The position numbers and the translations under genes were made by a program. A model generated the notes under the pieces. It saw only the letters and a list, made by a program, of their open reading frames with translations, was not told where the DNA came from and made no database searches. 64,000 bases of DNA from Pantoea rodasii (lineage in GTDB: Bacteria > Pseudomonadota > Gammaproteobacteria > Enterobacterales > Enterobacteriaceae), in NCBI RefSeq assembly GCF_002095465.1, contig NZ_MLFP01000003.1, positions 1 through 64,000 of the forward strand, in the 5' to 3' direction. Of the stretch, positions 4,774 to 52,402 are shown piece by piece (position 1 is the first letter of the stretch; each line of letters begins with the position of its first letter).

Positions 4774-5028
4774 GAATAAGGATTTATCCAAATGTAAAAT
4801 TGCCGGATAACCGGTAACAATTTCTTGCAATACTAATCTTAATGCGTATATTTCTCATTTGCTTTCTTAACGGCATCTTTACGGTCGTTCTGTTTGCGCC
4901 TGGATGGCGCGGTCAGGTAATTACCTCATCCTGATATTCCCTCTCAGCTCGTTATTCATGGCAGGAGCCAACAGACGTCAACAGGCATGCCGCCAGTAAA
5001 AATAACGATAAGTTGATTGAGGAATATT

Positions 5029-7227
5029 ATGTCTTTCGAAGAAAAGCGCGTCAGGGAATCTGGCCGAGTGCCGCAACGCGTGTTGCGAGTTTCTCTGCTG
5101 GCAATGATGGTGGCATCCGGTATTGCCCAGGCCGCCGATAACACCGCGTCAGAACAAACCCTGAATGTTGATGCCAGCGCCAGCAACGATGCGCAGCAAG
5201 AGCAGGCAGCAAAAGATTACAGCGTACCGATCACTCGTGCCGGTACCAAAATGGCATTAACCGCGCGTGATATTCCTCAATCGGTTACCGTTGTCAGCAA
5301 GCAGCGTATGCAAGACCAGCAGCTGCAATCACTGAATGATGTGCTTTCGAATACCACCGGTATTAGAGGCGTCAGCAGCGATATGGATCGTACCAACTAC
5401 TATTCGCGCGGTTTTATCATCGACAATTACATGGTCGATGGTATTCCAACGGCGTTTGCTTCTCGCTGGAACCTCGGTGATGCCCAGACCGATATGGCGC
5501 TGTATGAGCGAGTTGAAGTGGTGCGCGGTGCAACGGGCCTGTTGACCGGCCCAGGCAACCCGTCTGCTGCCATCAACATGGTGCGTAAGCACGCCGACAG
5601 CAAAGAGTTCACCGGCAATCTGGAAGCGAGCTACGGCAGCTGGGACAAACAGCGTTATGTCGCCGATCTCTCAGCGCCCCTGTCGCCTGAAGGCAACGTG
5701 CGTGGCCGCGTAGTCGCAGGTTACGAAGATAAAAATAGCTTTATTGAGCGCTATGGTTTCGAGAAGAAATTCATCTACGGTGTGGTGGATGCTGACCTGA
5801 CTGACAAAACCAAGCTGTCTGTGGGCTATGAATTTACCCAGGTCGATACCGACTCCCCAATGTGGAGTGGTTCGCCGCGTTGGTATACCGACGGTTCGCA
5901 AACGCATCTACGTCGCGGATACAACACCTCACCAGAGTGGGCTTACAATAACAAAGAAAACAAAAAGGTCTTTGTTAACCTGCAGCAGAACTTCGATAAC
6001 GGCTGGAACATCACGCTTAACGGCACGCATAACGAGATGTTCCTCGACAGTAAGCAGCTCTACATTGATGGTTATTTCGATAAGAACACCGGTATCGGCA
6101 CCTCACCTTACGCAAACTACCCTGTTGTAGGCGGCACTGGATACAATACCGGTAAACGTAAAGTCGATGCCGTCGATGCGTTCGCCAGCGGCCCTTATGA
6201 ATTGTTAGGTCGCCAACATGAACTGATGGTGGGTGTGAATTACAGTCGTCAGGATAATAAGTACTACAGCGCGTGGGCGAATATCTCGCCGACAGAGCTG
6301 GGTAATTTCAATAACTTCAATGGCAACTTCCCGGAAACCGACTGGAACCCTCGTGAGCCGGCATCGGATACGCAGTTGGTGCGTCAGAAATCCGCTTATG
6401 TTGCCACTCGCATTTCACTGGCCGATCCGCTGCATGTAATTTTGGGTGCGCGTTATACCAACTGGAATCGTGAGACGCTGAATGCAGAGATGGAGAAAAA
6501 TAACACCACCCCGTACGGTGGTGTAATTTGGGACTTCTATGATAACTGGTCGGCTTACGCGAGCTATACCTCAGTATTCCAGCCGCAAGATTATCAAGAT
6601 GCTTCAGGGGGTTACCTCTCACCTGTGATTGGTAAGAACTATGAAGCCGGTGTGAAATCTGACTGGCTTAACAGTCGTTTGACCACATCAATTTCAGTGT
6701 TCCGTTCAGAACTGGATAACGTTGCAGAAGCGACTGGAGCGACCAACCCGGATACCGGTAATGCCATCTATGTTGGCAAGAGTGGTGTAGTTAGCCGCGG
6801 CGTAGAGTTTGAAGTCAACGGAGCGCTGACGGACAACTGGCAGATGACCTTCGGTGGCACCACCTACGTGGCTGAAGATCGTGATGGTGAGAACTACAAC
6901 TCACAGCTGCCACGCACTTCATTCAACCTGTTCACCAGCTATCGTCTGCCGATGCTGGATCAGCTGACGCTGGGTGGCGGTGTTAACTGGCAGTCGAAGA
7001 CGTATAAAGACGTTGGCGCACCGGACGGCAATGGCACATGGCGCGCACGTCAGGGCAGCTACGCGCTGGTGGATCTTTTCGCACGTTACGACGTGACGAA
7101 AAACCTGAGCGTGCAGGGAAATCTGAACAACCTGTTCGACAAAGAGTATGACGAAAACGTCGGCAGCGGCGGTATCGTTTACGGTACGTCACGCAACTTC
7201 TCAGTTACCGCATCTTATCGTTTCTGA
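5029..7227 (+). CDS. fhuE: TonB-dependent ferric-coprogen/rhodotorulate receptor FhuE
   Basis: A 732-residue outer membrane receptor that takes up hydroxamate siderophores (ferric coprogen, ferric rhodotorulic acid, ferrioxamine) powered by TonB-ExbBD. It resembles E. coli FhuE throughout: signal peptide (about 1-36), plug domain with RDIPQSVTVVSKQRM and YYSRGF.IDNYMVDGIP, then a 22-strand barrel ending in an aromatic residue (SYRF). The ATG at 5029 has a ribosome binding site (TTGAGGA at 5017-5023). A TTG four codons earlier is in frame but lies inside that site. The gene is isolated; no coprogen or hydroxamate inner membrane transporter is adjacent, so it would rely on FhuBCD encoded elsewhere. 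A hairpin at 7242-7259 follows. Confidence 0.95.
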   Translation: MSFEEKRVRESGRVPQRVLRVSLLAMMVASGIAQAADNTASEQTLNVDASASNDAQQEQAAKDYSVPITRAGTKMALTARDIPQSVTVVSKQRMQDQQLQSLNDVLSNTTGIRGVSSDMDRTNYYSRGFIIDNYMVDGIPTAFASRWNLGDAQTDMALYERVEVVRGATGLLTGPGNPSAAINMVRKHADSKEFTGNLEASYGSWDKQRYVADLSAPLSPEGNVRGRVVAGYEDKNSFIERYGFEKKFIYGVVDADLTDKTKLSVGYEFTQVDTDSPMWSGSPRWYTDGSQTHLRRGYNTSPEWAYNNKENKKVFVNLQQNFDNGWNITLNGTHNEMFLDSKQLYIDGYFDKNTGIGTSPYANYPVVGGTGYNTGKRKVDAVDAFASGPYELLGRQHELMVGVNYSRQDNKYYSAWANISPTELGNFNNFNGNFPETDWNPREPASDTQLVRQKSAYVATRISLADPLHVILGARYTNWNRETLNAEMEKNNTTPYGGVIWDFYDNWSAYASYTSVFQPQDYQDASGGYLSPVIGKNYEAGVKSDWLNSRLTTSISVFRSELDNVAEATGATNPDTGNAIYVGKSGVVSRGVEFEVNGALTDNWQMTFGGTTYVAEDRDGENYNSQLPRTSFNLFTSYRLPMLDQLTLGGGVNWQSKTYKDVGAPDGNGTWRARQGSYALVDLFARYDVTKNLSVQGNLNNLFDKEYDENVGSGGIVYGTSRNFSVTASYRF

Positions 7228-7350: not shown

Positions 7351-8328
7351 TCAACATCCCGCCGCAATATAATCCCCGTTTGCACTGATCGGCACCACGG
7401 TTAAAAACAGCACCAGCGCAAATAACATCAGCAAAGCACCTCCGGCAATACGTAATATCCCCAGTATTTGCTGCGAGCGTGGCGATGACTCTGCCAACCA
7501 TAATTCGCCTGCACGATGACGGAAATGGCGGACAAACAGGGCCAGCGCGACCAGTGCCATACCGGTGCCGAGCGCCATGGTCATCACCGCAAACATGCCC
7601 CAGCGGGTAATGCCAATCACACTGGCAAACAGCAACACCGTAAGTGCGCCGCTGCAAGGCCGAACGCCGGTGGCAATAATAATGCCGATCCACGCCTTCC
7701 AGTTATCGACGGATTCCGCCGTAATGCCGTGATGGTGGCCGCAGCCATGATGATGTTGCTCATGTTCATGTTCATGCTCCTGATCGTAACCATGCCCATG
7801 CCCATGCCCATGATTGTGATTTAGATTATGGTGCTGATACTGACTGCGGCTTCGCCATGCCTGCACCATCATCATCACGCCCAGCGCGGCAATAAACAGC
7901 GAGCTGGCCTTTTCCAGATACCAGCGGCTGGTGCTGAGATCGCCGGTCGTCAGGTTAAAGCCAACGGCCAGGATAAACACAAAAGCGATGGCGCTGAGTC
8001 CCTGCACCAGGCTACCGAGAAACGGTACGGTGAGGGCGACACCGCGCGGCGGTTGATGAGTGGTGAGCCAGGTGGTGACAATAAATTTGCCATGACCCGG
8101 CCCAACCGCATGCAAAATGCCATAAATAAAGGTCACGCCAATCAACCACAACCCCGCGCTGTATTGCCCGCTATTAATCTGCAGCAGATGCGTCACCAGC
8201 AGTCGATGGAGTTGAATCTGCGTTTGCAGTGACCAGGCGAGAAACGCCGTCCAGTGGGAAAACAGTACGGCGAGCGCCGTCAGCATCACCAATGCAGCAA
8301 GGGTAAATCCAGTTTTAGTAGCAATCAT
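7351..8328 (-). CDS. NicO family nickel/cobalt transporter with His-rich loop
   Basis: A 325-residue membrane protein of the NicO/RcnA family (Ni2+/Co2+ transport). Features: N-terminal membrane segment, the family motif HAVGPGHGK after the second segment, a long cytoplasmic loop at about 170-205 packed with histidine and acidic residues (NHNHGHGHGHG, EHEHEHEQHHHGCGHHHG), then the second half with ATGVRPCSGALTVLLFA, the conserved C-terminal NicO motif. The start at 8328 was chosen because the frame upstream, though open to 9495, is out-of-frame read-through of the neighbouring monooxygenase. The direction of transport (efflux like RcnA, or uptake) cannot be told, and no RcnR-type regulator is adjacent. 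Confidence 0.85.
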   Translation of the reverse strand: MIATKTGFTLAALVMLTALAVLFSHWTAFLAWSLQTQIQLHRLLVTHLLQINSGQYSAGLWLIGVTFIYGILHAVGPGHGKFIVTTWLTTHQPPRGVALTVPFLGSLVQGLSAIAFVFILAVGFNLTTGDLSTSRWYLEKASSLFIAALGVMMMVQAWRSRSQYQHHNLNHNHGHGHGHGYDQEHEHEHEQHHHGCGHHHGITAESVDNWKAWIGIIIATGVRPCSGALTVLLFASVIGITRWGMFAVMTMALGTGMALVALALFVRHFRHRAGELWLAESSPRSQQILGILRIAGGALLMLFALVLFLTVVPISANGDYIAAGC

Positions 8329-43935: not shown

Positions 43936-44867
43936 ATGCAGAAGAAATCCCTTATTGCGCTGATGTTGCTGAGTTTAAGCAGTGCAGCTTTGGCTGAAGA
44001 AGTGGCGGTTAACGGTCAGCAGATCAGTATCGAAGCCAATAAAACGCCGGTGAATACCGCCAAAAATCCGGCTGCGGTGGCACAAATTCCTGCCGGACAT
44101 AAGTTTGCCGTACCGGGCTCATTTACCGTGGCGGTGGCCGCACTGAACTCGCCGCCGTTGACGGTGTTCAGCGATGACAACAAAACCCTGCTCGGTAGCG
44201 AAGTGGATATCGCGCGTCTGGTCGCCGATAGCCTGGGGCTGAAGCTCAATGTGGTCCCGACTTCGTGGGAAGACTGGCCGCTCGGTGTGGCTTCCGGCAA
44301 ATATGATGCGGCCATTACTAACGTCACCGTCACCAAAGAGCGTAAAGAGCGCTTCGATTTCGCCACCTATCGCAAAGATTCCCTGGGTTTCTACGTGAAA
44401 TCCAGCAGCCAGATTAAATCATTGAACAAGGCCGAAGACATCGCCGGGCTGCGCATCATTGTAGGTTCTGGCACCAACCAGGAAGCGATCCTGCTGGCGT
44501 GGGATAAAGAGAACCAGGCGAAAGGGCTGAAGCCATTCACGCCGGTTTACACCAAAGATGATGCCGCCCAAACGCTGGCGCTGCAGGCGGGGCGCGCCGA
44601 TGCCTATTTCGGTCCGAACGTGATTGGCGCGTGGAAAGCCGCGTTAACTCATCAAACCAAACTGGTGGGCAGCGTGGACGGTGGTTGGCCGAAAGCCGCA
44701 CACATCGCGGTGACGGTGAAAAAGATAACGGTCTGGTACAGCCAGTTAACACCGCGCTCAACGGCGTGATCAAAAACGGTGACTACGACAAGGTGCTGAA
44801 TCGCTGGGGTGAAGGCGTGGAGCGTCTGGACCACTCTGAAATCAACCCGGCCGGTCTTGGCGACTAA
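43936..44867 (+). CDS. Amino acid ABC substrate-binding protein (TcyJ/YxeM-like, one-base frameshift)
   Basis: A family 3 periplasmic binding protein, about 310 residues after repair. Signal peptide MQKKSLIALMLLSLSSAALA; mature features SPPLTVFSDDNKTLLGSEVDIARL, SWEDWPLGVASGKYDAAITNVTVTKERKERFDF and IVGSGTNQEAILLAWD. The frame breaks in a run of five A (44719-44723); six A restore KKDNGLVQPVNTALNGVIKNGDY and a stop at 44867. It is clearly paralogous to the second binding protein at the operon end (47097), which carries the same kind of break. It probably captures an S-substituted cysteine or cystine-like ligand. Confidence 0.85.
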
Positions 44868-44876
44868 GGAGATAGC

Positions 44877-45389
44877 ATGAGCCAGCAATTTTTCCGCGAA
44901 GTGCATCCTGAAGCCGCTGAGTTACAGCCGATTATCACCGGCCTGTTTGGTGAATACGCTGCCCGTTACGGCGACTTCTTCAAAAGCGCCAACGAGGTTG
45001 AGCTGACCGAATGGTATCTGCCACCGCGTGGGCTGTTTATCGTGCTGGAGCGTGACGGCGAGATCATCGCGATGGGCGCTTATAAACCTTATGACGCGGT
45101 GACCGCCGAGTTTAAGCGCATCTGGACCCGAAGCGATTTGCGTCGTCAGGGTTTAGCGCTGCTGATTTTGCAAGAGCTTGAGCGTCGTGCGTTGCGTGCG
45201 GGCTATCAGCGCGTGTTCCTGACCACCGGATTTCGTCAGCCGGAAGCGGTAAAGCTCTATATCGGCCACGGTTATCAGCCGCAGTTTGCGCTGCTGGAAG
45301 ATATGGAAATCTACAGTCAGCCACCTCATGACGGGCGTTTACGCTTCCTCAAGGTGATTGATGTGCATAGCGTGGCGCAAGCCAGTTAA
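44877..45389 (+). CDS. GNAT N-acetyltransferase (SnaA/YxeL-like)
   Basis: A 170-residue GCN5-related acetyltransferase using acetyl-CoA. The acetyl-CoA loop is seen as RIWTRSDLRRQGLALLILQELERRA, with the following beta-strand RVFLTTGFRQPEAVKLYIGHGYQP. It lies 9 bp after the binding-protein gene with a GGAG-type ribosome binding site. Operon context (deacylase, FMN monooxygenase, amino acid importer) matches SnaA/YxeL, which acetylate the amino group of S-substituted cysteines before oxidation. Confidence 0.85.
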   Translation: MSQQFFREVHPEAAELQPIITGLFGEYAARYGDFFKSANEVELTEWYLPPRGLFIVLERDGEIIAMGAYKPYDAVTAEFKRIWTRSDLRRQGLALLILQELERRALRAGYQRVFLTTGFRQPEAVKLYIGHGYQPQFALLEDMEIYSQPPHDGRLRFLKVIDVHSVAQAS

Positions 45390-45398
45390 GGAGTTGAA

Positions 45399-46319
45399 AT
45401 GAGTAAGCAACAACACTTAACCGTGGTCCCTGCACGTTATCCGGGGCGGATCATCGGGGCGTTGGTCGCACTGTTTATTTTGGCCAGCGTGATTGATTCG
45501 GTGGCCTTCAATCCACGTTGGGAATGGAGCGTGTTTGCCCGCTGGTTCTTTGATCCGGTGATCCTGTATGGGCTGGGGCAAACGCTATTGCTGACGTTGT
45601 TCGGTACGGTTTTGAGCCTGTTTTTCGGCGGCCTGCTGGCGCTGGCACGGCTCTCTTCTTCATGGTTATTGAGCACGCTGGCGTTTGGCTACATTTGGCT
45701 ATTCCGCTCGCTGCCGCTGATTGTGGTGCTGATCATTCTGTATAACTTCTCCTATCTGTACGACACGCTCTCGCTCGGCGTGCCCTTCACGGCATGGTCG
45801 TGGGGGCATTTCCAGACCATTAATGTGCTGGGGCAGTTCCCGGCAGCGGTGATTGGTTTGACGCTGGTGCAGAGCGCCTACAGTGCGGAGATTATTCGCG
45901 GCGGCTTTTTGGGTGTCGATCACGGCCAGTTCGAAGCGGCGTCAGCACTGGGATTATCTTCATCCCGTCGGACCTTCCGCATCATCCTGCCACAAGCATT
46001 GCGCGCCATTATTCCCACCACGTTTAACGAAATCATCAGCCTCGCCAAGGGCACTTCAATGGTGTACGTGCTGGCGATGCCGGAACTGTTTTACACCATC
46101 CAGATGATCTACAACCGCACCCAGCAGGTGATCCCATTATTAATGGTGGGCGCGGCCTGGTATCTGATTATTACCACCGTACTGTCACTGTTGCAGCACA
46201 GCGTTGAACGTTCGCTGGCCCGCAGCGTGACGCGTGAACCGCAACCCTCGCGCTGGCGTCAATGGCGCAACCGTTCTGCCACCGCCAATGAGGAGCTGTC
46301 CCATGTCCGAAGCCATTGA
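45399..46319 (+). CDS. Amino acid ABC permease (TcyL/YxeN-like)
   Basis: A 306-residue inner membrane permease of the polar amino acid (HisM) family, with a first segment at about 16-36 and a core of about five segments. The coupling loop reads [29 protein letters not shown], and family motifs include [13 protein letters not shown] and [14 protein letters not shown]. Its end overlaps the ATPase gene start by 17 bp. Only one permease gene is present, so the transporter would be a homodimer unlike the two-permease TcyLM. Confidence 0.9.
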
Positions 46320-47097
46320 TTATCGCTCTCTGCACACTACCGGTGCCATCAGCATTACCGGCGTCAGCAAGTCGTTTGGCATACATAAAGCGCTGGACGA
46401 GGTGTCACTGGAGCTGGAGCCGGGCTCGGTGACGGTCATTCTCGGCCCGTCGGGTTCCGGTAAATCCACGCTGCTGCGCACCATTAATCATCTGGAGCGG
46501 GTTGACGAAGGCTTTATTCAGATCGACGGCGATTACATCGGTTATCAGCGTCGTGGCAATAAGTTGTATGAGCTGAAAGAGAAGGCGATTTTACGCCAGC
46601 GCATCAACGTCGGTTATGTGTTCCAGAACTTTAATTTGTTCCCACATCTTACGGTGCTGGAAAACCTGATCGAGGCACCGATTGCCCATCGTCAATTATC
46701 ACGACGTGAGGCGATTGAGCGCGCGGGTGAATTGTTGGATATCGTGGGCTTGCGCCATAAAGCCGATGCCTGGCCGCGCCACCTTTCGGGTGGACAGCAG
46801 CAGCGTATCGCGATTGCGCGTGCATTGATGCTGAATCCGCGCGTGATGCTGTTCGATGAACCGACCTCGGCGCTCGATCCCGAGTTAGTGGGCGAGGTGT
46901 TGGACGTGATCAAGAAGCTGGCGCGATCCGGTACGACGCTGGTGATTGTGACGCACGAGATTGGCTTTGCGCGCGAAGTGGCGGATCAGGTGGTGTTTAT
47001 GGTCGATGGCCGCATCGTCGAGCAGGGCAGCACGCACCAGGTGTTGAATCAGCCGCGCCATGAACGTACGAAACGATTTTTGGCGCGAGTGCTGTAA
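46303..47097 (+). CDS. Amino acid ABC ATPase (TcyN/YxeO-like)
   Basis: A 264-residue ATPase of the polar amino acid importer class (GlnQ/HisP-like): Walker [11 protein letters not shown]-loop [13 protein letters not shown], signature [16 protein letters not shown], Walker [15 protein letters not shown]-loop [11 protein letters not shown]. The start at 46303 follows GAGGAG inside the permease gene; a start further upstream is open but implausible. The stop TAA overlaps the ATG of the next binding-protein gene (TAATG). Confidence 0.92.
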
Positions 47098-48001
47098 TGG
47101 AAAGAGTCATAGTCAGCGCGCTGGCGGCGTGGTTGTTCAGTTCGCCCCTGCTGGCCGCTGAAACGCTGGATGCAAAAACAACGAAACGCCGATCAACATT
47201 CCGGCTAACCCGCAGGCGATTGCCAACATTCCGGCCGGTTTCCATTTTGTCACGCCGGGCTATTTGACGGTGGCGACTTCGGCATCGAATTCACCACCGA
47301 TTGGCTTGTGGGCATCGGATAACAAAACGCTGATTGGTAGCGACCCTGATTTTGCCCGTTTACTGGCCGACAGTTTAGGCTTAAAACTCAAACTGGTACC
47401 GGCCGCCTGGGAAGACTGGCCGCTGGGCATCACCGCAGGACGTTATGATGTGGCGATGTTCAATATCGCTGTGACGGAAGAGCGTAAGAAGAAGTTCGAT
47501 TTCGCCACTTACCGGGCGGATAATCATGCGTTTGCCGTGAAAACAAACAGTGCGATTACGGCGATTAAAGGGCGTGAAGATGTGGCGGGTAAACGCATTA
47601 TTGTCGGTTCCGGCACCAACCAGGAGAAAATTTTGCTGAGTTGGGATGCGAAAAACCGCGCGCAAGGTCTGGCACCGGTTCAGCCAATTTATCTCAATGA
47701 TGATGCCTCAGCGACGCTGGCGTTGCTCTCCGGGCGGGCGGACGCGTCTTTTGGTCCACAAGCGATGGCCGCATGGAAAGTGGCTTCACGCGGTCAAACC
47801 AAAATCGTTGGTCACGGTCCGTTCCGCGCCTGGGTGGCAGTAACCACTAAAAAAGGCAATGGTCTGGATACGGCATTGCAGCAGGCGATCAATGGGGCGA
47901 TAGCCAGTGGGCAATATCAACAGGTGTTGGCGCGTTGGGGAGAACAGGAGGAGGGCGTGGAAGCGTCACAGGTCAATCCGCCTGGGATTGTGTATCAGTA
48001 A
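47097..48001 (+). CDS. Second amino acid ABC substrate-binding protein (TcyK-like, one-base frameshift)
   Basis: A family 3 periplasmic binding protein, about 301 residues after repair. ATG 47097 overlaps the ATPase stop and opens a signal peptide ([22 protein letters not shown]). The frame breaks at the five A of 47174-47178; six A give DAKNNETPINIPANPQAIANIPAGF and join the rest (SWEDWPLGI-like, IIVGSGTNQEKILLSWD, ending at 48001). It is paralogous to 43936-44867. Two binding proteins sharing one importer parallels TcyJ/TcyK of Bacillus. A strong terminator follows at 48025, marking the operon end. Confidence 0.83.
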
Positions 48002-50204: not shown

Positions 50205-50613
50205 TAGCTGTTCTCAATTTTATGTCATAATTATTTAATATTTTCAGTGGGGTATTTTAGGGAAAAGCGAGACCACTGTCTCAATAGTTTTCACGTTATT
50301 TACACTCATTCCGGCTGCAATCTGATTTGACATATGCTACGACGTTTTAACGTTGTTTGCCGTTAAGTTGGCAGAGTAACGCGCCCTAAGTCGATTACGC
50401 TGCTCTCGTCACTGTTCTGCAGCTTTATTAAGCGGGAACAGCGCATTTTCTCCACACTGACATTGTTCCTACCCAGGGACAAATTCGCACGTTAGAATGA
50501 AACGTAAGCGCCTTAGCGTGTAGACAGCACCTCAGGCCAATGAACGCAGGCTGAAACCGAATCCCGCCGTGCGTGCTTTGATGGCTACACCCACTTTAAA
50601 ACATCGGGTTGCA
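50205..50613. other. Divergent intergenic region with a small dyad
   Basis: About 400 bases between the EAL gene and the HAM1-like gene. It contains a perfect TTAACG-N8-CGTTAA dyad (50347-50366), which could be an operator for either side. The HAM1-like frame is open back to 50569 (GTG) and has an ATG at 50581, so its true start may lie in this region. No other gene seen. Confidence 0.4.
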
Positions 50614-51174
50614 ATGAAAATTCGTTTCCTATCTGCAAATGAGCTCAAGCTGGCTGAAGTGCGTACCATCCTTGAACCGGTAGGCGTTGAGGTGATTCCC
50701 ATCGCGCGTCGTATCGAAGAGATTCAGACTGAAAATGAGGTGGAATTGGTGCGGGATAAACTCACCAAAGCTTTCTCAATCATTGGTCGCCCACTGTTTG
50801 TTGAGCATACTGGTTTGTATCTGGATGGACTGAACGGCTTGCCCGCCGGGTTAACGCGTATCTTTTGGAGCCGATTAAATGCAGAGCGTTTCACCAAACT
50901 GGTGAACGGACTGGATAGCCCCAGCGTGACCGCCAAAACGGTACTGGGCTATTGTGATGGCCGTAAAATGTACCAGTTTGAAGGTGAACTTCGCGGCACT
51001 ATTGCACCCGCTCCAGCCGGGCCACGCGAATTTCAGTGGGACTGTGTTTTCATTCCTGAAGGGCATTCACAGACCTTCGCCGAAATGGGTGAATTGAAAA
51101 ATGAAATATCCATGCGCAGACTGGCACTGGATCGTTTCGCCACCTTTCTTAAAACTTCACGGGGACTGGCATGA
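50614..51174 (+). CDS. HAM1/RdgB-like nucleoside triphosphate pyrophosphatase
   Basis: A 186-residue member of the HAM1 (ITPA/RdgB) family, enzymes that hydrolyse non-canonical or other nucleoside triphosphates to monophosphates. Family landmarks in divergent form: RFLSANELKLAEVRTIL (canonical T/S-x-N-x-x-K), FVEHTGLYLDGLNGLPAGL (canonical DDSGL.VDAL.G.PG), EGELRGTIAPAPAG and FQWDCVFIP (canonical GFGYDP.F). It is not the housekeeping rdgB. ATG 50614 is used; starts at 50581 (ATG) and 50569 (GTG) are possible and none has a strong ribosome binding site. The stop overlaps the SIR2 gene start (ATGA), so both proteins are made together. Confidence 0.85.
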   Translation: MKIRFLSANELKLAEVRTILEPVGVEVIPIARRIEEIQTENEVELVRDKLTKAFSIIGRPLFVEHTGLYLDGLNGLPAGLTRIFWSRLNAERFTKLVNGLDSPSVTAKTVLGYCDGRKMYQFEGELRGTIAPAPAGPREFQWDCVFIPEGHSQTFAEMGELKNEISMRRLALDRFATFLKTSRGLA

Positions 51175-51965
51175 AACCGGAACTCAAACGCGCCTACGAT
51201 GCAGGCAAACTGATCCTGTTTGCGGGCGCGGGTATTTCACGCAATCTTGGTCTGCCGGAGTGGCATGAGCTGATTGCGCATCTGGCCAAAGAATTGGGTT
51301 ACGATCCGAAGATCTTTAATACCTACGGTACGCACCTTTCGCTGGCGGAATATTACAAGCAGCGCAAAGGTTCGCTAGGTCCGTTACGCAGTTGGATGGA
51401 TCGCGAATGGCATCGCCCGGATATCGATGTGCGTAGCTCTGAAATTCACACCATGATCACGCAGGGCAATTTCTCGCGCATTTACACCACCAATTACGAT
51501 CGCTGGCTGGAGATGGCGCACGAAGCGCATAATGTGCCGTACAGCAAAGTGGCGAACGCGGCGGATTTAGTCTCATTGACTGAAGACAAACGTCACATTA
51601 TTAAACTTCATGGCGATTTTGACGATGATACGTCTATCGTGCTGGATGAAAGCAGCTACTTCGAACGCCTCTATTTTGATTCGCCGCTGGATATCAAACT
51701 GACGCATGACGTGATGGGCAATTCAGTGTTGTTTGTCGGGTACAGCATCAGTGATTTTAACATTCGTCTGTTATTCTACCGCCTGACGAAAATGTGGGGC
51801 CGCACTGGATTGGCTACCGCGCGCCCTAAATCCTATCTGTTCACCAACCGCAATAATCCGGTGGCGAGAGAGGTGTTAGGGCAGTGGGGCATTGAAATGA
51901 TCGTGTCCGAAGAGGATGATCCGCGCAAAGCGCTGGCCACGTTCCTGGAAGAATTACTGGCTTGA
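51171..51965 (+). CDS. SIR2-family NAD-hydrolase-like protein
   Basis: A 264-residue SIR2_2-type protein. NAD-binding motif ILFAGAGISRNLGLPEW (about 15-31), TTNYDRWLE (about 103-111), KLHGDFDDDTSIVLDESSY (catalytic His, about 144) and GYSISDFNIRLLFYRL (about 189-204) are all intact, so the fold and active site appear functional. Bacterial SIR2 proteins of this kind usually deplete NAD+ in anti-phage defence (for example ThsA, DSR2, SIR2-APAZ). It has no extra N- or C-terminal domain, so the sensor must be another protein; the coupled HAM1-like enzyme is the obvious partner. A small deacylase or ADP-ribosyl role cannot be excluded. Confidence 0.87.
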   Translation: MKPELKRAYDAGKLILFAGAGISRNLGLPEWHELIAHLAKELGYDPKIFNTYGTHLSLAEYYKQRKGSLGPLRSWMDREWHRPDIDVRSSEIHTMITQGNFSRIYTTNYDRWLEMAHEAHNVPYSKVANAADLVSLTEDKRHIIKLHGDFDDDTSIVLDESSYFERLYFDSPLDIKLTHDVMGNSVLFVGYSISDFNIRLLFYRLTKMWGRTGLATARPKSYLFTNRNNPVAREVLGQWGIEMIVSEEDDPRKALATFLEELLA

Positions 51966-52005: not shown

Positions 52006-52025
52006 TACTGTATATAAATACAGTA
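52006..52025. promoter_or_regulatory. LexA (SOS) box of yebG
   Basis: The 20 bases at 52006-52025 match the LexA consensus TACTG-TATATATATA-CAGTA at all but about one spacer base, 15 bp before the yebG start. yebG is a known SOS gene in enterobacteria, so this is well supported. It lies 41 bp past the SIR2 stop codon, so DNA-damage induction would affect yebG rather than the upstream pair. Confidence 0.92.
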
Positions 52026-52039
52026 AGCCGAGGTGCATC

Positions 52040-52402
52040 ATGGCAGTCGAAACCAAATATGTTGTTGTCAGAAAGGGTGAAGAGAAGATGACGTTTGCCA
52101 ATAAAAAAGACGCGGATGCCTGGGATAAAATGCTCGATATGGCCGACGCCTTCACCGACTGGCTGCAGCAAAATCAGCCTGAACTGGGTGAAGCACAGGC
52201 CGAAGCATTGGGCATGTTACTGGCAGAACAGAAAGACGCGGTGCAGCATATTTTGCGTACCAGCAAATTGCCGGATGCGGTAAAGGAAGAAGCGACTGCC
52301 GAAGTTGAAGTTGAGACTGAAGCTTCTGCTGAATCTGAAGCCTCTGCGGAAGCTGAAACCGGAAAACCAGAAAAGAAAGTGCGCGCGGTTAAAGCAGCCT
52401 GA
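52040..52402 (+). CDS. yebG: DNA damage-inducible protein YebG
   Basis: A 120-residue protein of the YebG family, beginning MAVETKYVVVRKGEEKM and containing KKDADAWDKMLDMAD and LLAEQKDAVQHILRTSKLP as in E. coli YebG. The C-terminal 35 residues are a longer, low-complexity Glu/Ala/Ser tail ending KKVRAVKAA. The start at 52040 follows CGAGGTG and an SOS box immediately upstream; the frame is open for 20 codons further but that would run through the LexA site. The molecular function is not established, though expression in the SOS response is. Confidence 0.93.
   Translation: MAVETKYVVVRKGEEKMTFANKKDADAWDKMLDMADAFTDWLQQNQPELGEAQAEALGMLLAEQKDAVQHILRTSKLPDAVKEEATAEVEVETEASAESEASAEAETGKPEKKVRAVKAA

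Follow-up and report, generated by a model that had tools for sequence, protein, structure and literature searches.

Two overlapping genes for a HAM1-like and a SIR2 protein

The window, a stretch of 64,000 nucleotides from Pantoea rodasii (contig NZ_MLFP01000003.1, positions 1 to 64,000), carries two overlapping genes for a HAM1-like protein and a short SIR2 protein, which were assigned by Pfam to Ham1p_like (E = 2.1e-34) and SIR2_2 (E = 4.2e-24), respectively, and are named here after their homologues komB and komC (Table 1). An EAL-domain gene (Pfam) is located upstream of komB on the opposite strand, and the yebG gene downstream of komC is the sole yebG match in the genome of the window. 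At a distance from the pair, two similar-looking substrate-binding protein ORFs (43936–44769 and 47264–48001) flank acetyltransferase-like, permease-like and ABC-ATPase-like ORFs, all read by eye; the region 43936–48001 may be a single transporter cluster whose binding protein was duplicated.

Table 1. Features of the komBC locus, in positions of the window
Feature	Position	Strand	Description
Possible komBC promoter block	50462..50498	+	ATTGTTCCTACCCAG ... CGTTAGAAT; from a 9-locus alignment
komB homologue	50614..51174	+	186 aa; predicted HAM1-fold nucleotide sensor
komC homologue	51171..51965	+	264 aa; short SIR2 protein, presumed NADase
LexA (SOS) box, presumably	52006..52025	+	TACTGTATATAAATACAGTA; before yebG, after komC; outside komBC
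yebG	52040..52402	+	Pfam YebG, 3.8e-34; downstream of komC

Relatives of the pair were collected from genome_contigs, and the best 80 of 114 loci were fetched. Read from its first start codon, the HAM1-like ORF spans 50569–51174 on the forward strand, with an in-frame GTG extension from 50569. This GTG, taken as the start in the initial annotation, is probably wrong, since ATG 50614 is the start common to relatives and 28 of the 42 Pantoea-type komB ORFs have no in-frame ATG, GTG or TTG upstream before a stop; the solved KomB also aligns from its own residue 1. The four-base ATGA shared by the two ORFs was confirmed, as were the motifs named at the outset. Moreover, a check of co-occurrence with this overlap found ATGA in all 40 Pantoea-type pairs in which both genes are full length (43 loci including the window), indicating that the overlap is not due to chance.

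The SIR2 motifs G-A-G-I-S, TTNYD and HGDF are all intact in the window protein, and TTNYD and HGDF were found in 80/80 of its relatives (best 80 of 114 loci). The HAM1-like protein departs from its housekeeping counterpart. DDSG and SHR are the catalytic motifs of the housekeeping RdgB/HAM1 pyrophosphatase, the DD of RdgB being the site of the catalytic aspartate. Among the full-length KomB ORFs from the best 80 of 114 loci, none of 77 has DDSG, 76 have VEH[TS], the remaining one has IEHT, and all 77 have [FL]xWD; SHR occurs once, by chance and away from the site. In the window copy, the motifs read EHTG and SMR. Thus, EHTGL in place of DDSGL and F-x-W-D are features of the KomB family and not peculiar to the window copy. 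In an alignment with the RdgB of the genome, EHT or EHS stands in place of the lost DDSG. Both substitutions pointed out in the initial annotation thus mark KomB as a receptor-type HAM1 protein, and both are common to KomA-linked and KomA-less copies. In addition, a separate RdgB is encoded elsewhere in the genome (C1:305816-306382). In NCBIfam, the best model for the HAM1-like protein scored 131 bits against a cut-off of 203, and all 8 families listed fell below their cut-offs.

Resemblance to Kongming and to other SIR2 systems

A phmmer search of the PDB matched the HAM1-like protein to KomB (8zsg, 8zsg_V; E = 5.5e-70; 100 of 179 aligned residues identical) and the SIR2 protein to KomC (8zsf, 8zsf_D; E = 1.4e-100; 144/257). 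These nearly full-length matches, at 56% identity each, indicated that the pair is, by sequence, homologous to the sensor KomB and the NAD-destroying effector KomC of Kongming. An unknown composition was thereby ruled out, although the initial annotation had known of no named system of this kind. Kongming was reportedly first described as an anti-phage system by Zeng et al. in Science in 2025 (eads6055). As reported in PMC12948488 and PMC12774641, KomA, a phage kinase and the host NDK make dITP from dAMP, and dITP binds KomB, which switches on KomC to cleave NAD+. As dITP-bound KomB is an activator there, the proposal that the HAM1 protein acts as an antidote is unsupported, whereas the other role proposed for it, a nucleotide sensor controlling a SIR2 NADase, agrees with the KomB and KomC homologues.

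The gene order and overlap of KomABC loci recur in the window pair, the HAM1 catalytic residues are likewise lost in its KomB, and the SIR2 motifs are the same in its KomC. The window therefore holds a probable counterpart of the short SIR2 NADase KomC and, as judged from its residues, a candidate for the HAM1-like dITP receptor KomB. In contrast to Kongming, no system-encoded deaminase for dITP synthesis was found at the window locus or in the window genome, and the pair occupies one place on a genus-wide plasmid. The patchy, horizontally spread distribution that we ourselves, and no paper, would expect of a defence system was not seen, as KomC is present in 53/61 genus genomes beside yebG.

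A second HAM1 and SIR2 complex has been solved in the PDB (9v0g, 9v0y, 9v0z, 9v12, 9v2k, 9v2m and 9v57; in 9v12, A replaces both the N and the H of the SIR2 motifs). A HAM1-like protein likewise shares these entries with a short SIR2, but the SIR2 of 9v0g is only 35% identical to the window KomC; used as a query, it matched one of 369 class genomes, namely through the window's own KomC. A literature search found no paper on the 9v0g complex. In PADLOC-DB (2023), the SIR2 protein matched ThsA (5.5e-27), Dsr1 (4e-13), Dsr2 (4.5e-12) and SIR2-pAgo, and no profile matched the HAM1-like protein. The SIR2 profiles are about 480 to 1275 positions long, except one ThsA profile of 242 positions. Thoeris ThsA, DSR1/DSR2 and SPARSA have the SIR2 NADase domain in common with the window KomC but are longer, with further domains or other partners, whereas the sensor here would be a separate HAM1 protein. 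Similarly, the housekeeping dITP/XTP pyrophosphatase RdgB/ITPA shares the HAM1 fold with the window KomB but has the DDSG and SHR motifs, both lost in the latter.

Short SIR2 proteins like KomC were also observed on alphaproteobacterial plasmids, mostly from Sinorhizobium (64 records) and Rhizobium (21), with 40–50% identity where examined; in the four loci L091, L092, L093 and L094 (SIR2 at about 5001–5790), neither KomB nor KomA was matched over 5 kb around the gene. On the Vibrio parahaemolyticus plasmid pHLA (L090, 3464–5783), an annotated operon of adenosine deaminase, NTP pyrophosphatase and SIR2 genes matches KomABC, with 56% identity for KomB/KomC and tet(B)-type resistance genes a few kilobases off.

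KomA was not found in the window locus or the genus genomes searched

An adenosine-deaminase-like KomA gene lies directly upstream of komB in 17/80 loci, a count of near relatives only because it covers the best 80 of 114 loci, and overlaps komB by 4 nt in all 17. In one of these loci (L050), the komB ORF has only 137 aa. In the other 63 of these best 80 loci, a search of as much as 1.5 kb before komB detected no intact KomA; two of the 63 (L030 and L048) have less than 1.5 kb of DNA there. The 63 comprise 42 loci of the Pantoea/Mixta/Erwinia type (a few under other labels), 16 of the Stutzerimonas type, the singles L052, L054 and L056, and the short-komB loci L047 and L048. In L047 (Halomonas sp. 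Y3, 7852–8004) and L048 (Halopseudomonas bauzanensis, 90–242, near a contig end), a full-length komC accompanies a komB ORF of only 50 C-terminal residues. KomA was detected neither in the flanks of the window locus nor in any of the 42 fetched Pantoea-type loci.

The search was then widened to whole genomes, with the genome of L040 and the Vibrio plasmid record as positive controls. The window genome has a single PF00962 match, which lies on another contig, is Add-like and is 33% identical to KomA (29–33% across KomAs). The 17 KomAs are 60–94% identical among themselves and 48% identical to the Vibrio plasmid KomA. Across the 61 genus genomes, the KomA query gave at most one match each, in 57/61 genomes, at 32–35% identity, and no match at KomA level (0/61); with these matches at 32–35% against 48–94% between KomAs, none of the 61 has a KomA by this test. 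The reduced genomes G030 and G041 keep KomC, and the KomA query, the only one used there, found no adenosine deaminase in either. KomC was present in 40/56 Stutzerimonas-group genomes and KomA in 0/56, with matches of only 30–32% over part of the query. Records labelled Pseudomonas, such as L066 (Pseudomonas duriflava), are counted in the Stutzerimonas set. Besides the controls, the 13 genomes or records behind the loci yielded only Add-type matches and the remnants in L052 and L054 described below; one weak match in L056 (E = 0.037) was left out of the counts. Over all sets, Add-type matches fell at 28–35% identity. Adenosine deaminases were found in 7 of 50,697 phage records, at no more than 31% identity to KomA and in no record named for Pantoea, matches so few and so distant that supply of KomA by phages fails as a general explanation. 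The missing KomA is the real peculiarity of the locus.

Recurrence of the KomA-less state

In Chitinimonas taiwanensis (L054, 7109–7428), KomA survives in fragments interrupted by stop codons, which end 15 nt ahead of an intact komBC. In Pseudomonas laurylsulfativorans (L052, 7281–7397), what is left of KomA is a C-terminal stub of 39 residues (56% identity, E = 1.8e-8), ending 46 nt short of komB, again in an intact komBC. These remnants beside intact pairs indicated that KomA was lost and komBC kept in both. No KomA remnant was found upstream of komB in Pantoea-type or Stutzerimonas-type loci.

In a concatenated tree of 77 rows, one branch (SH-aLRT 100) separated the Pantoea-type rows from all others, and a second (99) did the same for the Stutzerimonas-type rows. 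It left out loci with komB below 170 aa (L047, L048 and L050), without komB (L036) or with komC below 250 aa (L063), and its Vibrio row is a long branch. The distribution of KomABC and KomA-less loci on the tree takes four changes, three of them forced by the starred branches, so that the KomA-less state is a repeated one. These changes are most naturally read as losses, although this quick, unrooted tree without bootstrap does not distinguish gain from loss.

Distribution of the pair in Pantoea

KomC was found in 53/61 genus genomes, yebG in the same 53, and both were missing from the same 8. In all 54 copies from these 53 genomes, yebG follows komC on the same strand, at less than 600 bp in 52/54; the pair had been described as lying between unrelated genes, which thus holds only in part. 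Linkage to the large Pantoea plasmid was assessed with crtB as its marker. Both crtB and KomC were present in 52/61 genomes, on one contig in 38 of these, while two genomes had crtB only, one had KomC only and six had neither; that is, KomC occurs in 52/54 crtB-positive genomes, and 6/8 KomC-negative genomes also lack crtB. In a plasmid collection, KomC matches fell in 95 Pantoea records, and a DNA search with the neighbourhood found SIR2, pyrophosphatase and YebG named together in 11/12 among the matches listed. A term search of the main text of the LPP-1 paper (PMC3505739) gave no mention of Sir2, Ham1 or YebG. A search of 50,697 phage records yielded no KomC, and KomC was likewise found in no viral_contigs entry (a search sensitive to close relatives only) and, in a DNA-level search, in no E. 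coli genome.

These results showed that the pair is near-core cargo of the large Pantoea plasmid and not a mobile island. With KomC in 53/61 genomes beside yebG, a mobile gene of a defence island is unlikely, but a mechanism of the defence kind is not thereby called into question. The initial annotation had counted a core genus locus of invariable presence among the findings that would refute its conflict module, and the distribution comes close to this. Nevertheless, a member is broken or missing in 3/42 fetched Pantoea-type loci (L029, L036 and L063) and komC is split in G060, indicating that some strains can dispense with the pair. What is new here is a KomA-less, near-core KomBC; among the titles and abstract openings searched, a set without the founding Kongming paper, none dealt with KomA-less or Pantoea komBC.

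Several Pantoea-type loci carry other labels and are possibly mislabelled: L009 and L058 (labelled Enterobacter, Acinetobacter or Pseudomonas) and plasmid match H3 (Acinetobacter venetianus), each with KomC at 99–100%, and plasmid match H108 (Pseudomonas silvicola), with 84% DNA identity over 73% of the 6.5-kb query.

Selection on komB and komC

The dN/dS ratio was calculated by the Nei-Gojobori method for pairs with dS of 0.1–0.8. Median dN/dS in Pantoea-type loci was 0.005–0.006 for KomC (36 of 820 pairs in range) and 0.025 for KomB (51 of 820), compared with KomABC systems, where KomC gave 0.062 (11 of 120 pairs) and KomB 0.099 (16 of 120). The Pantoea-type KomC value is thus about tenfold lower than that of KomC from KomABC loci, a comparison over few unsaturated pairs (36 of 820 for KomC). 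Among neighbouring genes, yebG (first 75 codons, 154 of 703 pairs) gave 0.048 and the EAL gene (5 of 105 pairs) 0.068. All four genes are present in 15 loci, and the medians there were 0.004 for komC, 0.018 for komB, 0.030 for yebG and 0.068 for EAL. When only pairs with the window were taken and dS was allowed to reach 2, komB and komC each had a median of 0.016.

The low ratios indicated that the pair was not released from selection in Pantoea despite the absence of KomA, and that KomC is more constrained there than in the canonical KomABC system. Of the new results this is the strongest, and a function in constant use is favoured by it. The constraint is not general to KomA-less lineages, as the KomA-less Stutzerimonas-type KomB gave 0.214 (14 of 120 pairs; no KomC pair in range). 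A near-frozen, non-mobile distribution is not what an arms race would be expected to produce, and the pair could have a housekeeping role.

Promoter and LexA sites

The possible komBC promoter block recurs in 7/41 Pantoea-type loci (L009 a loose match), is kept only among close relatives and was not flagged in a scan for the sigma-70 consensus; it may represent a partial promoter footprint in these relatives. Three LexA cores were observed in the window against 0.77 expected, including the site between komC and yebG, which we take to be a LexA box. An exact core lies downstream of komC in 34/41 loci and upstream of komB in 1/41. Control of komBC by LexA thus found no support, the exact core before komB being absent in 40/41 loci.

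Proposed function and alternative explanations

We consider it fairly probable that the pair is a Kongming-type KomB–KomC sensor–effector complex that works without KomA as a near-invariant core part of the large Pantoea plasmid. KomB, with a HAM1 fold and without the catalytic aspartates of RdgB, would be the receptor of a (deoxy)nucleoside triphosphate with a deaminated purine, the likeliest ligand being dITP or an ITP-like nucleotide. Ligand-bound KomB would turn on KomC, and the resulting cleavage of NAD+ would halt or kill the cell. Because no dedicated deaminase was found, the trigger must arise elsewhere, and it might come from a phage enzyme, a phage-disturbed nucleotide pool or chemical deamination beyond the capacity of RdgB. 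The near-invariant place of the module on the large plasmid would apply to Pantoea and its kin. Complex formation, nucleotide gating and NADase activity of the Pantoea pair are inferred from its homologues; the ligand in the Pantoea lineage, the trigger source and an anti-phage role are guesses. Pantoea-type KomB has E42 and R82 in 41/41 rows, where other groups have V/L and Q, and with these lineage-specific residues its ligand may have changed.

The alternative that survives best, although we regard it as rather unlikely, is a domesticated, non-immune role, in which the pair would sense endogenous deaminated nucleotides, formed for example under oxidative or nitrosative stress, and lower NAD+ to a limited extent; for the plasmid-bearing cell this would be a metabolic or stress response. 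The near-core position in crtB-positive genomes, a KomC dN/dS clearly below that of its neighbours as well as of KomABC systems, the SOS gene yebG that always adjoins the pair where found, and the retention of KomC in G030 and G041, where the KomA query met no adenosine deaminase, are all consistent with such a role. However, the closest characterised homologues are anti-phage, and the LexA cores provide no regulatory link, as no exact core precedes komB in 40/41 loci.

It is more doubtful that the full Kongming pathway operates in trans, with the housekeeping Add or an adenosine-type deaminase of the infecting phage standing in for KomA. An Add-type match is present in 57/61 genomes and a few phages do carry adenosine deaminases, but Add acts on nucleosides and not on dAMP, and the Add of the window genome, at 29–33%, is distant from KomAs. 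In addition, the two reduced genomes keep KomC with no deaminase match to the KomA query, and Pantoea appears in the name of no record among the 7 from phages.

A decaying, inert Kongming relic left after loss of KomA is largely refuted for Pantoea and very improbable, for although KomA loss is real elsewhere (L052 and L054) and a few broken copies exist, dN/dS is 0.005–0.025 and the motifs are intact over 41 Pantoea-type rows. Equally improbable is a SIR2 toxin held in check by the HAM1 protein, as a toxin–antitoxin or plasmid-addiction pair, since the overlapping genes and the stable inheritance of the plasmid, which would suit it, are set against the activation of KomC by dITP-bound KomB reported for the homologous system in PMC12948488 and PMC12774641, and against the retention of komC with a 50-residue komB ORF in L047 and L048, which is unexpected if KomB is the antidote.

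Returning to a KomB–KomC complex that works without KomA, a wider reading is offered tentatively, as possible rather than probable. The sensor–effector half may have been freed from the messenger-maker more than once, in the Pantoea group, in Stutzerimonas and in single strains, and in Pantoea it may have been domesticated into a near-invariant surveillance of the purine-nucleotide pool, whether the cell's own or phage-altered, that burns NAD+ and possibly responds to a changed ligand. A KomA-less pair that is almost frozen across the genus would leave two possibilities: infection or stress gives rise to dITP-like signals with no need of KomA, or the receptor family binds other ligands. In both cases, it would become clearer where non-canonical nucleotides serve as alarm signals in bacteria.
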